Origin: a virus
Length of the DNA stretch: 64,000 bases
IMG/VR virus record: IMGVR_UViG_3300036818_000127
Coordinates: 45,418 to 109,417 of that record
Strand: one strand, 5' to 3'
The notes under the pieces are model-generated. The model had not been told where the DNA came from. It did not search any database and saw nothing but the letters and a program-made list of their open reading frames with translations. The translations under genes and the position numbers were made by a program. Below, piece after piece: positions 36,348 through 64,000 of the stretch. The first letter of the stretch is position 1. Each line of letters begins with the position of its first letter.

Positions 36348-36385
36348 AAAAAGGAGGGATAGCATCTAAACTATCCCTCCTTTTT
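36348..36385. terminator. Bidirectional terminator between the replication operon and array 1
   Basis: AAAAAGGAGGGATAG at 36348-36362 pairs perfectly with its complement at 36371-36385, so a T-run follows on either strand. It ends the plus operon and, on the minus strand, would end transcripts that cross array 1. Confidence 0.85.
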
Positions 36386-36396
36386 ATGCATCAAAA

Positions 36397-36656
36397 ATTG
36401 CAGTACCCTCAAGGCGGGTCGATGGATTGCAACTCGACAGGAATGCGCGGCCAGGTCTCTAGCATGATCAATTGCAGTACCCTCAAGGCGGGTCGATGGA
36501 TTGCAACTGGAATATCCTCTCCAGTAGATATCAACATACATCGGATTGCAGTACCCTCAAGGCGGGTCGATGGATTGCAACTTAGAAAGTCATTCGAGAG
36601 ACACTTCCCTGATTTTGTATTGCAGTACCCTCAAGGCGGGTCGATGGATTGCAACT
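36397..36656 (-). CRISPR. CRISPR array 1: four 38-bp repeats, three 36-nt spacers
   Basis: Identical 38-bp repeats begin at 36397, 36471, 36545 and 36619 (period 74). On the plus strand each starts ATTGCAGTACCC and ends GGATTGCAACT. Spacers occupy 36435-36470, 36509-36544 and 36583-36618 and differ from one another. Read on the minus strand the repeat starts AGTTGCAATCC, contains a GACCC...GGGT stem and ends TACTGCAAT, the more usual CRISPR direction. It would then be co-transcribed behind 36827-37201 and end at the 36348 terminator. No cas genes are nearby. Confidence 0.85.
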
Positions 36657-36826: not shown

Positions 36827-37201
36827 TCAATATCCCCTATGTTCCTTGTATTCTAGATACTGCCTCTTAACCTCATTGACTATGTTTTGTTTGACCTCAT
36901 CATCAGTTACATTTTTCTCTCTAATGATCTTTTCTGTCATTACTTTTACTTCTATTTGCCCCAAAGCATCAAGGTCACTAAACCCCCACTTTACAGCATA
37001 ATCGCTAAAAACCTGCTCCCGCTCCTGTTTTTCCTTTGCGAAGACATTTTCTGAAGGCATAGTAGCCTTTTTTGTCTGGATGATCTTATTGTATGTCATC
37101 ACCTCAATTTTATCAAGACGCTGTTCTACTCCCGTCAGACGGTCTTCCTGTTCTACAGCCTTGTACCCTTGAAGATAGCGATATTCTTCTTCGTGATCCA
37201 T
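36827..37201 (-). CDS. Charged helical protein, 124 aa
   Basis: The start at 37201 (MDHEEEYRYLQGYKAVEQED) follows AAAGGAGAAAACT. The protein is a long charged helix (RLTGVEQRLDKIEVMTYNKI, EVKVMTEKIIREKNVTDDEV) like the coiled-coil protein at 129-470. It sits between the two arrays and upstream of array 1 on the minus strand. It has no resemblance to a known Cas protein. Confidence 0.6.
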   Translation of the reverse strand: MDHEEEYRYLQGYKAVEQEDRLTGVEQRLDKIEVMTYNKIIQTKKATMPSENVFAKEKQEREQVFSDYAVKWGFSDLDALGQIEVKVMTEKIIREKNVTDDEVKQNIVNEVKRQYLEYKEHRGY

Positions 37202-37304: not shown

Positions 37305-37336
37305 AAAGAGGGATAGTGTAGATGCTATCCCTCTTT
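37305..37336 (-). terminator. Terminator after array 2
   Basis: AAAGAGGGATAG at 37305-37316 pairs perfectly with CTATCCCTCTTT at 37325-37336. On the minus strand TTTCTTTTTACCC follows. The hairpin is a close relative of the one flanking array 1. Confidence 0.75.
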
Positions 37337-37337
37337 A

Positions 37338-37586
37338 AATATACCCTCAGATGGATCGATGGAAATGAAAAGTATTAGTCACCTAATTCAGTTGCAGTAT
37401 CCTCAGATGGATCGAAAAGTAAATCTGAACTATCGACTAAAGTAGTTGCAGTACCCTACCAACGGGTCGAATTGGTTAAAGTAGAGAGTATACCCCTATA
37501 CAGTTGCAGTACCCTCTAACGGGTCTAAGTGCAGAAAGCGAGTATCAAACATATGAATACCGTTGCAGTATCCTAGCTCGGATCAA
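37338..37586 (-). CRISPR. CRISPR-like array 2 with covarying ~23-bp hairpin repeats
   Basis: Five units recur every 54-59 bases, with plus-strand anchors GTTGCAGTA at 37391, 37445, 37503 and 37562 and a degraded first unit near 37340. On the minus strand each repeat is GAYCC, a 6-7 base variable loop, GGRT and the tail ACTGCAAC. The stem changes in step: GACCC with GGGT, GATCC with GGAT. Spacers of 31-36 bases are unrelated. The minus-strand distal unit is degraded, as is common at the end of CRISPR arrays. It lies behind the 37631 gene. Confidence 0.65.
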
Positions 37587-37630
37587 CAGAGCTAGGATAC
37601 CAGCACTCCCTCTATCTGTCAAGTCGGATT

Positions 37631-37927
37631 CTATAGTTCCTCTTCATAGGCAGTTCGCAATGGCTGCAATGACTCCTCATACTGAGAACGTAATTCCTGC
37701 TCAGCATCCTCTCGTGTCTTGAATGGCCCTTGGTCTTCTCCCTCGGAATAGAGGCCATCCTTAGTCCCTCGCTGGTAGCCGTACCATCCATCATCCTGCT
37801 GAAATGTCACCATCTCAATCCCGTCTTGCCCACCACCCCAGCTTAGCGGACCAGGGATACCTACAGGGGCTTTCTCACTCAGTTGAACAATTTCTAAGGT
37901 CTGCTTTCTCATCTCTTCATTTGCCAT
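37631..37927 (-). CDS. Unknown protein, 98 aa
   Basis: It contains a Gly-rich segment (KAPVGIPGPLSWGGGQDGIE) and a charged helical C terminus (EDQGPFKTREDAEQELRSQY). It is the last gene of the operon from promoter copy 10, with array 2 directly downstream. Confidence 0.55.
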   Translation of the reverse strand: MANEEMRKQTLEIVQLSEKAPVGIPGPLSWGGGQDGIEMVTFQQDDGWYGYQRGTKDGLYSEGEDQGPFKTREDAEQELRSQYEESLQPLRTAYEEEL

Positions 37928-46784: not shown

Positions 46785-46994
46785 ATGAAGTGCCACATAT
46801 GCCTGCGAGAGCAAGGCATCATCCCATCTCAACATGACAATGACCAGCACACCCTATGTGATGAGCATAGAAATGAGGCAGCATCAACCTTTTATGTCGG
46901 CAAGCTTGCAAGAGAGCAGGCAGGTCGCTTATATGCAGGACATCACGATCTGAATAGGCTACTTCGATTGGTGGGTAGACAGTCAGGGACCTGA
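46785..46994 (+). CDS. Small zinc-finger protein, 69 aa
   Basis: MKCHICLREQGIIPSQHDND then QHTLCDEHR gives a CxxC...CxxH zinc site. The C terminus is a basic helix. GGAAAGGACTTCTT precedes the ATG. It is the last gene before structured RNA copy B. Confidence 0.6.
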   Translation: MKCHICLREQGIIPSQHDNDQHTLCDEHRNEAASTFYVGKLAREQAGRLYAGHHDLNRLLRLVGRQSGT

Positions 46995-47404
46995 TCCCTT
47001 AAAAGGGATGGGCTTGTAGAGATGGGGGTAGTTTTTGCCCGTCTTCTCTCTAGCTTCACCTGACCAGACCCAGCCAGGGCTGTTCCTAGAAGGCTCATAG
47101 AGAGCGGGAAACAGCTATCGGGCTACGTTAGAGGCGAAATTAGGTACCATAGGATGCGAGGGCCAGTCCGATGCTCTACGGTTGCAGGTTAAACAGGTTT
47201 ACGAGGGTTAGTGCCAGTGCTTGCAACGACAAACCGCTTTCTAACTTCGTCGAGGCCCCCATTACCTGGGAAACCAGTGGGGTTTAGCCGTTCCGTCATA
47301 AAACGGCTCCCCGCAAGGGGATTACTCCTAAACTAATCCAGCCTGCGGGCTACTTCTTTCCTCCCAACCACTAAAAGGGAATGGGTTTCCAGAAAGGATA
47401 ACTG
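46995..47404 (+). ncRNA. Large structured leader RNA, copy B
   Basis: This ~410-base gene-free stretch is rich in local pairing (CATTACCTGGGAAACCAGTG, CCCCGCAAGGGG). Its last ~110 bases match copy A at 9962-10440, including the GCAA-loop hairpin, CCAGCCTGCGGGCT, TTCTTTCCTCCCAA and AGAAAGGA just before a start codon. The 5' parts are much less alike. Two copies upstream of unrelated genes and on opposite strands argue for a functional RNA rather than a shared gene remnant. Confidence 0.6.
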
Positions 47405-53746: not shown

Positions 53747-54122
53747 AGACTATCTTACCTTCTTAGAGAGAAGAAGGAAATTGAGCAATTCACATCTTTA
53801 TCCAGATGAGCTGCTTACTGTGCCGCTAGAAGCATTCCTAGAAGATGTCACGTATGAAGTTATTGAGCCGACGGTCCTCAAGATAACCTTTACTGAGGAT
53901 GAAGAGGACCACAAGCTCTGGTGTATGTACTATATGCTTTCAGTTCTTTTTAGAGCATATGGAACAGGGCCAGCCAAGTGTGGATGTTATGGCACGCTTG
54001 GCCCTGACTATCAGAGCTATGGATTCCGCAGTCAAGATGATCTAGAGAGAGCGCGGTCGATCTTTCATTTTCCAGAGGGCTTCATTGCAGGTCCACCGAT
54101 CTATATCGGTCCACAGCCATAA
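53736..54122 (+). CDS. Unknown protein, 128 aa
   Basis: The start at 53736 follows TTGGAGAAACGG inside the previous gene. The protein contains TYEVIEPTVLKITFTEDEED then HKLWCMYYMLSVLFRAYGTG, and a Cys/Gly-rich CGCYGTLGP. No family is recognised. Confidence 0.55.
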   Translation: MNHEDYLTFLERRRKLSNSHLYPDELLTVPLEAFLEDVTYEVIEPTVLKITFTEDEEDHKLWCMYYMLSVLFRAYGTGPAKCGCYGTLGPDYQSYGFRSQDDLERARSIFHFPEGFIAGPPIYIGPQP

Positions 54123-59606: not shown

Positions 59607-61298
59607 TCATGCTTTAAATCCTCGTGCAAACTCTTCCCATGTTGTCCGCTCTGCTTCTGGTATCTCCTTTTGCTTCTGCTTCGATCTGAGCTGTAAGAAG
59701 GGAAGCTTGCGCACAATATTGATACCACTCTGCTGTCCTACATCTGTTGTGTACCCACATTCAATGCAATGAAAGAGGTTCTTATCTTCTTTGTCGAAGT
59801 TCTCTTTGCTCACACAGCCACATTGCGAACAAGTGGAAGCCGTGTAAGCACTGCTGACTTTACGGAGTGGTGTTAGACCAGCAATGTCTAGTTTGGTCGC
59901 TAGGAGGTCCTGGAGCTTCTGATATTGCCTTCTCTGGAGTATACGGTTGAAGGCTTTCCCCTTCCCTCCAACACGCTTTTTCGGGGCAATGTAGCTTAGA
60001 TCTTCTACGATCACCTGGGACTGATGTGTACGGGCCATCTCGACAATACTATTAGCTACTTGGTGGACATGGCGGTCTGCAATCCGTGCGCGTCTCCTAT
60101 CCCCTTTCGTTGTTTTTCCCTTTTTCTGCTTGATAGCTATATTCTTTTCAATCGCACCAATTAATCCGTTTAATTCATCGGTACTAACATTGAAAGTTTC
60201 AATGACTTCCTTCCCGTCCAGGGAAACGACAGCCCCAGATGCTAAATAAGAAATAGATCGGTCAATACCTAGGTAGGTCGCTGGCTTTATTCGCTCAGGT
60301 CTGGGGAACTGGAAGGCGACATGGAGCTGGTACTTATCTCCATATTTCATCAGTTTAGCAGACACAGGCCAAGCAGGCTTTACACTAGTATCGCCTGACC
60401 TCTGCGGAAGGAAGGCATGTTTAGTAAAACGTAGCATGTTCTCATGCCACCTTCCCATTTCTAGAGGGACAAGAATGGAGCGAGTCCCATTTCCAAAGGA
60501 CCTGACCTCCTGATACCTGCCCATTCCAAGATGGTAATCCCCCAAGATAGTGTGAGTACTTGTACTGTACCGCTTCAGTCCTGTTTTATGTTCCTGGAAA
60601 CCTTTGTTCCGCATGTAAATATTCTCAGGTTCACGGATATCGATGTATTGTCCATCTATATCGATCCTTCTTCCATGATTGGACAATTCTCCGATAACAT
60701 ACAGTCTCACATAGAATGTGCGCGTCTCTGGATTGTAGAAAATACGGAATCCCTGATCAGGCATGCTATTCCCGAAAGATAAGGGCACCAGCCCTCGCTG
60801 TCGTGTGCGGAGCAGTTGGTCGCGGAGTGTATTCTCTTCTTCTAGGTCATCTGAGATAGTCCGCAGACCTTCTAGTGCGGCCTCTCGCTTTGCATCACGG
60901 TTATCTTCTTCAACCCTGTTAGGGTAGGATGGCTTCTGCTTTTCTGTCAATGACAGTTCAGCGAAACTCAAGAGGGTGCTAGCAATATCTGACTTCATCG
61001 ATGCACGCAGCCGGGCCTCTAGAGGTTCAAGTAACTGGTCCAGATCTGGTATCTTGTTCGTTCGGAAAAGAGCAGTTTCTAATGTCCTAGCATTCGTTAG
61101 CTCTTCTCCATTGCTCTCGCGTACTGCAAATACAGCCATTGCATGCAATTCCTCTGCTGTATAGCTAGAGAAGAAATCAAGGATTGATGTGTAGGCTCTT
61201 GTGTAATTCTGCAATGCCTCATCAAGCACTGCTCTGATGTGTTTCGTGGGGTTGTGGATGGTGAACACTGCTGTTCGGTGAATGTGTTTTCCTGGCAT
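59607..61298 (-). CDS. TnpB/Cas12-like RuvC nuclease, 563 aa
   Basis: The RuvC parts are intact: Asp346 in YLGIDRSISYL, Glu432 in VIVEDLSYIAPKK, and Asp519 in GYTTDVGQQSGINI. A zinc finger (Cys490, Cys493, Cys511, Cys514) sits between motifs II and III, as in TnpB and Cas12. The protein is longer than most TnpBs (about 350-450 aa) because of ~150 extra residues before residue 340. No TnpA transposase and no obvious IS200/IS605 ends are seen. GAAGGAGGGCATGCC precedes the ATG. A structured RNA candidate and the TGCAAC array are read away from it. TnpB and Cas12 proteins cut DNA with a guide RNA. Confidence 0.8.
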   Translation of the reverse strand: MPGKHIHRTAVFTIHNPTKHIRAVLDEALQNYTRAYTSILDFFSSYTAEELHAMAVFAVRESNGEELTNARTLETALFRTNKIPDLDQLLEPLEARLRASMKSDIASTLLSFAELSLTEKQKPSYPNRVEEDNRDAKREAALEGLRTISDDLEEENTLRDQLLRTRQRGLVPLSFGNSMPDQGFRIFYNPETRTFYVRLYVIGELSNHGRRIDIDGQYIDIREPENIYMRNKGFQEHKTGLKRYSTSTHTILGDYHLGMGRYQEVRSFGNGTRSILVPLEMGRWHENMLRFTKHAFLPQRSGDTSVKPAWPVSAKLMKYGDKYQLHVAFQFPRPERIKPATYLGIDRSISYLASGAVVSLDGKEVIETFNVSTDELNGLIGAIEKNIAIKQKKGKTTKGDRRRARIADRHVHQVANSIVEMARTHQSQVIVEDLSYIAPKKRVGGKGKAFNRILQRRQYQKLQDLLATKLDIAGLTPLRKVSSAYTASTCSQCGCVSKENFDKEDKNLFHCIECGYTTDVGQQSGINIVRKLPFLQLRSKQKQKEIPEAERTTWEEFARGFKA

Positions 61299-61905: not shown

Positions 61906-62025
61906 TAGTTGATGAGCAGGTAGGTGTCTATAAGAGAGTCTGTGCAGCTATGTAAGAGGATATATAGCGCAGCATTGCTTGTAACCAATAAGGATAGATG
62001 ACAACATAGAGTATAGGCTGTCGAC

Positions 62026-64000
62026 TGCAACCCGTTACTTGATATGTCAGAGTGTAACTTAGATGGATCTATGCAACCACGGGCTTTTATTTGCAATTGC
62101 AGCAAGCAATATGGCAAGATGCAACAAATGGACAATTTATATGATCCTGCAACCATCAGACAGGGCTACAGCCTGCTCGCTAACCATGCAACCTTGGGAG
62201 AGTTCTGATCGCAATACTGAAGTAGTAGGTGATAATTGCAAGAGGCTGACTGGAAGAGGGAGGGCGCAGCTAGTGCAACCTCAAGCAGTATCAGGGATGC
62301 AACTGATGTGATTGGAGAGGAATGCAGCAACTAGGCACTCCCATCGAGATGCAATACTGGCGATCTATCCATGTAACCATCTTCGTCGGTCCTGCATGCA
62401 ACGTTCTTGACCCTTACTGCAACAAGCAGTTCGCAATCGCAACTTGTATGGTTTAGGCTAGTATTATCCATGTAACTATTGAACGCTGTCCGGCAATGAT
62501 GAGCAACGGTGAAAGGCAAAGTCTAGTGTGCTGCAACTATCTTATAGTCTAGACTAAATGCAATGAATATCAAGGTAAGCCTCGCAACCATTTCAATGCA
62601 ACTAAGAGAAGTATAGGTAGTATAGTGCAACTCACAAATGACGGCAACATCAAGAAGTCACAGTATGCAACCAAGCTACGCGGGACCTTGCAACAACGGG
62701 CAATAGCTATATGCAACAAGAATGTCATATTGGACAGTGCAACAACGAGTAGAAGATTTGCATGCAGCACAAATGAAATACTACATAGCAACATATGGAC
62801 CAGCGATCAAGGGAACTGCAACAAGAGGGCGTTGTCTGGAGGATGTAACACAAGGAGCTAGATAGCGATTGCAACTTTCATAGAGTCACGCAACTGTAGT
62901 AGATGCAATGGTACAAGCTCGTTCACAACTAACATGACACTGCAACAAGCAAGAGACACTGCAACAAAAAGGATATAGGGACAATTGCAATAATCTACGA
63001 TGGCCCCATGCAACCTGATAGAGGAAGATATTCAATAATTGTAACTGAAACCTCCGCAACTATAGAATATGCATTCTAGACTAAGAATTATGCAACTAGT
63101 TGGTTGCTAAGGCATAATGCAGCTATCAGCGGCTAGATATGCAACTTACTTTCAACACACTCTTGCAACATCCATCTCGACATCTCAATTCTATCAATGC
63201 AGCGACTTTGATGTTCCTTACATGCAATGAGTAGAGAAAATGCAACAGCAAAAGAGTGAAGAACGCAACTATCATTGACCAGCTATGCAACTATGGTTCT
63301 CATATCATAATAGTTTATACGCAACTTCTGTAGAGGCATCATGCAACATGTATTGAAAGCATTGCAACCTCATCTGACAGCATCCTGATGCAACATGATT
63401 TCTCTTTGTACATGCATCTCGCAACAACTGGCAATGACATCTACAACGGTAGAGGAATGGGGCATAGCATGCAACTCAGGCAAGTTATCACTGCAACATG
63501 GGGAAGTCTTGCGATATCAATGCAACCAGTGTTCACATACGTGGAAGGAATGCAACATGTTCAATAATATGCAGCCTCAATGGATTTTATGCAACTATTA
63601 GGTAAATAGAGAGCTATGCAACTGATTAACCCTATTCACTCAATATGCAACAAATAGGTGGTACTGCAACACTGATGAGGGTTTTGCATCATCATACCCA
63701 AGATGCAACTATGGCTTTTTGAGGCAACTACGAACATGTCAAATATATGTAACGATCAAGAGAGAACCTAGTGCAACCATGGGCGGGCATGCAATGAGTA
63801 GACATAGCAACAACTGAGTGCAACATTCTTGATCGAGAGAAATGCAACATAAGGGTTATCATAGCAATAGCCAAGCATGAATGATGCAACCATGACAGAG
63901 CAAGCAACACACATGTGGTACATTGCAGCATTGGAAAGCAACTAGAGGGGAAATAAGCAGCAGGTAAACGGAATAATAGATGCAACAATATCTGTAGGAC
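62026..64000 (+). repeat. TGCAAC quasi-periodic array, runs off the window
   Basis: By hand count GCAAC occurs 58 times on the plus strand in under 2 kb, usually as ATGCAAC, TTGCAAC or (A/G)TGCAAC, while the reverse complement is almost absent. Adding one-base variants (GCAAT, GTAAC, GCAGC) fills most gaps, and steps are mostly 15-30 bases, commonly 22-26; four steps in a row at 62644-62713 are exactly 23. The intervening segments, typically 16-21 bases, look unrelated to each other. No credible gene is present. It has the layout of a guide array with a minimal repeat; an array of protein-binding sites is the alternative. Confidence 0.8.

Follow-up and report, generated by a model that had tools for sequence, protein, structure and literature searches.

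Repeats of class 1 CRISPR systems that are processed by Cas6 share a common layout, a hairpin followed by an 8-nt 3' tail. Three kinds of described elements come closest to the phage locus studied here: Racr RNAs, virus-borne mini-CRISPR arrays, and CreA antitoxin RNAs. Racr RNAs are repeat mimics located downstream of promoters without cas genes; those reported are solitary units, and one of them, RacrIF1, occupies Cas6f and Cas7f (PMC10651486). The census of Racr candidates kept only matches without other partial repeats nearby (PMC10651486). The RNA anti-CRISPRs known from the open-licence literature mimic one repeat type and not several. For CreA, degenerate repeats were reported to resist recombination (PMC9458426), and leader-repeat hairpins were reported for Cas13 arrays (PMC13187072).

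Here, we describe two repeat arrays in a 109,417-base viral contig (G000:C1), the final part of which (C1:45418-109417) is the window, i.e. the whole 64-kb stretch of DNA analyzed. The upstream one, termed array 2, very probably imitates CRISPR repeats of the host lineage, judging by its hairpins and tails. The end of the contig is a 127-base direct repeat of its start, so the phage genome is complete and probably circular. Among the products of its open reading frames are plausible proteins of tail, capsid, portal, and terminase, named by eye. By its sequence the phage is probably a bacteriophage of Ktedonobacteria-type hosts (a class of soil bacteria), its own host being absent from the genome collections compared. 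Neither a Cas6 nor a RAMP protein was found in the phage genome, a search of the phage collection by DNA polymerase homology gave distant matches only, and no relatives were found for a flanking 145-aa open reading frame. Elsewhere the contig contains a HEARO (IscB-associated) RNA (window 46982-47265, plus strand, E = 4.5e-20), with no IscB gene noticed adjoining it, and two families of interspersed repeats: one of about 50-150 bp in at least 10 places (e.g. C1:49290-49350, 53762-53904, 59729-59803, 63867-64011, 84976-85172, and 101652-101703) and another of about 200 bp (C1:3322, 19478, 38408, 65550, 80050, and 98014).

Array 2 occupies positions 37343-37584 on the minus strand, which confirms the repeats noticed in a preliminary description of this DNA. 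Its features are as follows, in the direction of reading; the E-values are those of the host-only covariance model R1 described below.

37594-37622, minus strand: predicted promoter of array 2, TTGACA-17-TATCCT with a TG extension, 10/12 in a consensus scan
37568-37600, minus strand: 12-bp perfect inverted repeat, GTATCCTAGCTC/GAGCTAGGATAC, upstream arm overlapping the -10 box, other arm in unit 1
37562-37584, minus strand: unit 1, GATCC GAGCTA GGAT ACTGCAAC, T-A stem, E = 2.8e-4
37526-37561, minus strand: insert 1, 36 nt, from sequence; protospacer not found
37503-37525, minus strand: unit 2, GACCC GTTAGA GGGT ACTGCAAC, C-G stem, E = 4.6e-7
37469-37502, minus strand: insert 2, 34 nt, from sequence
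37445-37468, minus strand: unit 3, GACCC GTTGGTA GGGT ACTGCAAC, C-G stem, E = 5e-5
37414-37444, minus strand: insert 3, 31 nt, from sequence
37391-37413, minus strand: unit 4, GATCC ATCTGA GGAT ACTGCAAC, T-A stem, E = 4.4e-5
37358-37390, minus strand: insert 4, 33 nt, its 3' end retaining TCCATC of the array-1 repeat
37343-37357, minus strand: unit 5, GATCC ATCTGA GGGT, hairpin without tail, missed by the covariance model
37305-37336, minus strand: predicted intrinsic terminator of array 2, a 12-bp stem followed by a T run

Units 1-4 have the form GA(C/T)CC-loop-GG(G/A)T-ACTGCAAC, a 4-bp hairpin with an 8-nt tail. The spacing of five units every 54-59 bases given in the preliminary description is correct (59, 58, 54, and 56), but the tail, said there to be kept throughout, is present in units 1-4 only; unit 5 has ATATTTAA in its place and a T.G wobble in its stem (ATCC/GGGT). 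The exchange of stem bases was likewise found as claimed, units 1 and 4 having the stem ATCC/GGAT and units 2 and 3 the stem ACCC/GGGT. All units are without the 5' half of the host repeat, and the inserts are AT-rich (29-36% GC vs 45% in the window). The unit motif has 8 matches in the window, whereas 60 dinucleotide-shuffled sequences had 0.0 on average, so its occurrence is not due to chance. Two folding results count against the mechanism proposed below: in isolation the 4-bp hairpins are weak, and most units adopt other pairings when the complete transcript is folded to minimum energy. A search of Rfam gave no match to either array. The 12-bp inverted repeat was matched by none of 5000 dinucleotide shuffles of the leader; it may be an operator if transcription starts at the predicted promoter, in which case the left arm is untranscribed, or a leader-repeat hairpin if transcription begins further upstream.

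The second array and two small genes complete the locus.

37631-37927, minus strand: gene of a 98-aa protein (motif EGEDQGP), directly upstream of array 2
36827-37201, minus strand: gene of a 124-aa helical protein between the arrays, with ribosome-binding site AAGGAG and ATG at 37201
36397-36656, minus strand: array 1, four identical 38-nt repeats AGTTGCAATCCATCGACCCGCCTTGAGGGTACTGCAAT and three 36-nt spacers, period 74
36348-36385, minus strand: predicted intrinsic terminator of array 1, AAAAAGGAGGGATAG...CTATCCCTCCTTTTT, from sequence and folds

Array 1 lies 740 bp from array 2 on the same strand. Neither it nor the terminators behind both arrays were mentioned in the preliminary description. 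The two arrays are tied together by the final unit of array 2, which retains TCCATCGA of the array-1 repeat. Provisionally, until a host with this repeat is found, we name array 1 a virus-borne mini-CRISPR array. No copy of its repeat was found in plasmids, and a strict pattern of the full repeat had no match in 84,980 species; a looser pattern gave 17 single matches, approximately the number expected by chance, and was used only for reaching a Chloroflexota genome. The promoter of array 2 directly follows the stop codon of the 98-aa protein gene. For this protein, no significant family or fold match was obtained (predicted structure with mean pLDDT of 73.5), and its gene was not found in 47 Ktedonobacteria genomes. 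No homologue was found for the 124-aa protein (mean pLDDT 58), a possible anti-CRISPR if judged only by the position of its gene.

A pattern scan of 400 Chloroflexota genomes revealed arrays with the phage-type hairpin and tail, the best genome being G353 of the class Ktedonobacteria. Covariance model R1, with a 4-bp stem, was built from 18 chromosomal repeats only, from Ktedonobacteria plus one other Chloroflexota repeat. Applied to the whole phage genome (110 kb), it assigned E = 5.5e-7 to each array-1 repeat and 4.6e-7 to 2.8e-4 to the full units of array 2, values that are rough owing to short calibration; the next-best match had E = 0.7, and below this value there were only the 4+4 array units. 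Matches to R1 occur in 38 of the 47 Ktedonobacteria genomes, several of which have more than 80. Across hairpin and tag, array 1 agrees with a G353 repeat at 21 of 22 positions, units 2-4 of array 2 match their nearest host units at 19 of 21-22 positions and unit 1 at 18 of 21, and the loop of unit 2 is the same as in a G353 chromosomal repeat. In the genomes checked, cas genes of three types (I, III-B, and III-D) adjoin the modeled repeats: in G341, the repeat GTAGCAGGGGCTTCGATCCGACTGAGGATACTGCAAG adjoins the type III-B genes for Cas10/Cmr2, Cmr3, and Csx14, and the repeat GTAGCAGAGGCTTCGATCCGTCTCAGGATACTGCAAG adjoins the type I genes for Cas1, Cas3, and Cas7, while the repeat GTTGCAGCCCTACGACCCGCAGCAAGGGTACTGAAAG of another Chloroflexota genome, G170, adjoins a type III-D locus encoding Csx10, Csx7, Csx19-like, and CARF proteins. 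Cas6 is present in six of the seven Chloroflexota genomes tested. With a 3' hairpin and an 8-nt handle, the units of array 2 have the layout of this Cas6-processed class 1 family (I / III-B / III-D). One position counts against the host mimicry account, namely the last tag base: array 2 has C there and array 1 has T. This base is G in the chromosomal array repeats read (ACTGCAAG/ACTGAAAG) and C, T, or A, never G, in the phage units.

Single units with the same hairpin and tag were also observed in Ktedonobacteria chromosomes (L049:6091, L050:9593 on the minus strand, and L140:1429). Their stems are preceded by pyrimidine-rich sequences that resemble one another, e.g. CTTTCTTTCGATCC, and one of these units lies in a 5' leader, that of an acyl-CoA dehydrogenase-like gene; such units are possible crRNA-like regulators.

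The paired C-G/T-A exchange had been interpreted as compensating evolution inside one array, an interpretation not supported by comparison with the host genomes, as each stem form corresponds to a repeat class that exists in the hosts. The T-A class is found in arrays of G341, G359, and others, and the C-G class in G353, G170, and G101. All 18 chromosomal clusters of at least three units are purely T-A or purely C-G, single intermediates aside, whereas array 2 mixes the classes, with two units of each, and the array of a second phage (L105, see below) is mixed too. Since host arrays are pure and phage arrays mixed, the apparent covariation in array 2 is mainly the presence of two repeat classes in one transcript. 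Just one of the four base pairs changes on both sides within array 2, and units 4 and 5 have an identical 5' stem and loop, so the stem changes are not five independent events; statistically, the swap is one covarying pair. The accompanying statement that repeats of one array are normally identical also needs care, as two long chromosomal arrays of G353 are strongly divergent. These arrays (L047:9900-12600 and L048:6930-10050, with at least 20 and at least 38 units) have a common leader GCGCGTCCAAAATGGGAAATCA and a conserved hairpin and tail, and cas genes were not recognised within several kb of them.

Evidence for selection on pairing comes from the repeat family as a whole. In 23 distinct units from the two phages and several genomes, all 92 of 92 stem cells pair: one base pair (6-18) is C-G in 12 units, U-A in 9, and U-G in 2, another is A-U or G-U, and two are invariant. 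The covariation score of these units exceeds all 500 shuffles and the signal disappears when the partner is slid by 1-3 columns, the alignment including related sequences and the shuffle counts not being equivalent to probabilities. Among 47 distinct units, which include many G353 repeats, each pair is formed in 44-46, and the association at pair 2 (counts 31, 2, 3, and 10) has a Fisher p = 4e-6, uncorrected for relatedness. Because both pairing and covariation hold over the 23 and the 47 units, we consider the stem to be under a pairing constraint across the family. Together with the class 1 Cas6-repeat layout, complete pairing and covariation support the earlier proposal that the array would be recognized by structure plus tail. 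The two observations named in the preliminary description as counter-evidence were absent from units 1-4: their stems stay paired, without unpaired changes, and the promoter- and terminator-like sequences point away from decayed copies without a transcript.

When viral contigs were scanned with repeat patterns, a single additional array came to light, belonging to one phage that is represented by two contigs (L105/L109/L128). A truncated unit comes first in it, then two complete copies of the repeat GTTACAATGCCATCGATCCGTTTGAGGATACTGCAAA at a distance of 73 nt, then a unit of the C-G class, GCCCGTGAGAGGGTACTGCAAC, and finally an intrinsic terminator; R1 finds its units with E = 5e-7 and 9e-6. 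A promoter-like sequence, TTGACA-17-TATTCT, is in the same position as in array 2. The protein encoded upstream is a homologue of the 98-aa protein (44% identity over 84 aa, E = 1e-17), relatives of which were found among the viral contigs only in the two contigs of this phage. The lysins of the L105 phage and the window phage are 43% identical. A mixed array behind a predicted strong promoter is thus kept in two related phages with different sequences.

On balance, we lean toward array 2 producing a Cas6-dependent crRNA-like RNA, most likely a multi-type RNA anti-CRISPR decoy, and a decoy action of this RNA is, in itself, rated slightly above even. In the proposed mechanism, the strong predicted promoter would give a transcript of about 280 nt stopping at the terminator. 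Host Cas6 would bind each hairpin and cut after it, releasing four RNAs of 59, 58, 54, and 56 nt, each with the 8-nt 5' tag ACTGCAAC, a middle part of 31-36 nt, and a 3' hairpin, that of unit 5 closing the 3' end of the last processed RNA. As both host stem classes are present, one transcript could load Cas6 and effector subunits of more than one system (type I, type III). The RNAs would be 15-20 nt shorter than host crRNAs (host units are 72-75 nt), because the 5' repeat half is missing; RNAs of this kind might end up in shortened or defective complexes, or might do no more than keep Cas6 and backbone subunits busy, and the decoy would thus sequester host Cas6 and effector subunits, tying up or redirecting the immunity of the host. 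Units that differ from one another and lack the 5' half would, moreover, be poor targets for recombination and for the acquisition of spacers. Transcription, Cas6 cleavage, and a decoy rather than a guide function are all inferred from sequence. More tentatively, and rated somewhat below even, at least two phages may use a polyvalent RNA anti-CRISPR in which several repeat classes simultaneously jam type I and III systems belonging to different hosts. If true, a tandem transcript mixing stem classes would amount to an RNA inhibitor of broad range encoded by a single gene. The units would, in addition, be natural minimal Cas6 substrates (a hairpin with an 8-nt tail and without the 5' half) for type I/III systems of Ktedonobacteria, with directly testable specificity.

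The phage also encodes a nuclease-like protein of its own.

59607-61298, minus strand: Cas12f/Cas12e/TnpB-like protein of 563 aa (PADLOC Cas12f, 1.6e-21; CasX structures, 1.5e-9)

No close relatives of this protein were found in viral contigs, nor was the presumed guide scaffold located beside its gene, searched there as a pattern. A ladder of TGCAAC copies lies beside the gene (window 61983-64000, plus strand, and over the circular junction to C1:650), with 52 copies in 2.5 kb vs none on the other strand; a second ladder (L016:11420-12920, minus strand) has 31 copies in 1.5 kb vs one on the other strand. In both, the bare 6-mers are mostly 19-30 nt apart. The structured leaders that precede the two ladders resemble each other (84% by blastn over 68 nt), and GTTGCA sites occur within or behind each leader. 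The first units of the second ladder are about 27 nt long and end in ATTGCAAC, shrinking to TGCAAC before a terminator. By their arrangement, the ladders look like guide arrays in which the repeat has almost vanished. The arrays described here were initially considered to belong to this Cas12-like protein, an idea dropped once the host repeats appeared.

Four other explanations of array 2 were weighed. It could be a mini-CRISPR array that produces guides, with which host Cas proteins attack or repress a target unwanted by the phage, for instance a plasmid, a gene of the host, or a phage competitor. The neighboring array 1 is a textbook mini-array, virus mini-arrays against related viruses are known (PMC6858448), the 31-36 nt inserts are long enough for guiding, and the four units with a closing fifth hairpin, which ends the last insert like a terminal repeat, look built for complete guide RNAs. 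However, no convincing protospacer for any insert was found in the phage itself, the few related phage loci, or the host loci compared, a small search space, and the inserts are AT-rich and the repeats differ from one another. We regard guide production as possible, though less likely than a decoy action. That array 2 is a decayed, functionless copy of a former normal CRISPR array would agree with the loss of the 5' repeat halves and of one tail and with the TCCATC of an older repeat retained in unit 5. Decay is nevertheless highly improbable, since stem pairing and the 8-nt tail were spared in four units while the remainder changed, the 10/12 promoter and the terminator still flank the array, and a related phage has the same design in a different sequence.

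More improbable still is the reading in which array 2 serves the Cas12f/Cas12e-like nuclease of the phage (59607-61298), whose presumed guide loci use TGCAAC. A TGCAAC end is indeed shared, and the phage has two other TGCAAC-rich loci, one of them beside the nuclease gene, but hairpin and tag are nearly the same, base by base, as in host class 1 repeats, the inserts of 31-36 nt differ from the ladder spacing of 19-30 nt, and about 22 kb separate the arrays from the gene of the nuclease. The least probable explanation is a CreA-like regulator, the crRNA-like RNAs of which would steer host Cascade by partial pairing to repress a promoter of toxin or cas genes. CreA genes have divergent repeats that retain the nucleotides for Cas6 processing (PMC8501985), and solitary units of the same repeat family exist in host chromosomes (L049, L050, L140). 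Of the linked cas operon and toxin RNA of CreTA systems, however, neither was noticed here (no Cas6/RAMP in the phage and no readily recognisable toxin near the arrays), and there are four inserts instead of one.

The decoy interpretation can finally be placed among the known systems. With the type I and III arrays of Ktedonobacteria/Chloroflexota (G341, G353, G170), array 2 shares the hairpin, the loop closure, and the ACTGNAA tag, whereas these chromosomal arrays have full repeats of 36-37 nt spaced by 72-75 nt, one stem class per array, and mostly many more units. Virus-borne mini-CRISPR arrays (PMC6858448), which array 1 resembles in its few spacers, host-like repeats, and absence of cas genes, have one or two spacers behind host-like leaders, while the repeats of array 2 are non-identical, truncated, and of two classes; array 2 was not assigned to this group because its repeats are neither identical nor complete. 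In CreA antitoxin RNAs (PMC8501985, PMC9458426), as in array 2, repeats diverge yet keep the requirements of Cas6 processing and the 8-nt 5' handle, but CreA is paired with a toxin RNA, is linked to a CRISPR-Cas locus of the host, and carries a single guide, unlike a phage locus with four inserts. By analogy, array 2 would work most like a Racr: it is phage-encoded and intergenic, with a promoter directly upstream and no cas genes nearby, and it mimics repeats including the Cas6 hairpin, matching those of the host lineage (R1 E-values of 4.6e-7 to 2.8e-4), the phage's own host not being among the genomes. It differs in having five tandem units instead of one, two classes per transcript, and no 5' repeat half. 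Since Racrs are defined as solitary and array 2 is tandem, it was not classified as a Racr; a census that kept only unaccompanied units would filter out this design, and the mixed tandem loci suggest that such elements are missed by published censuses.
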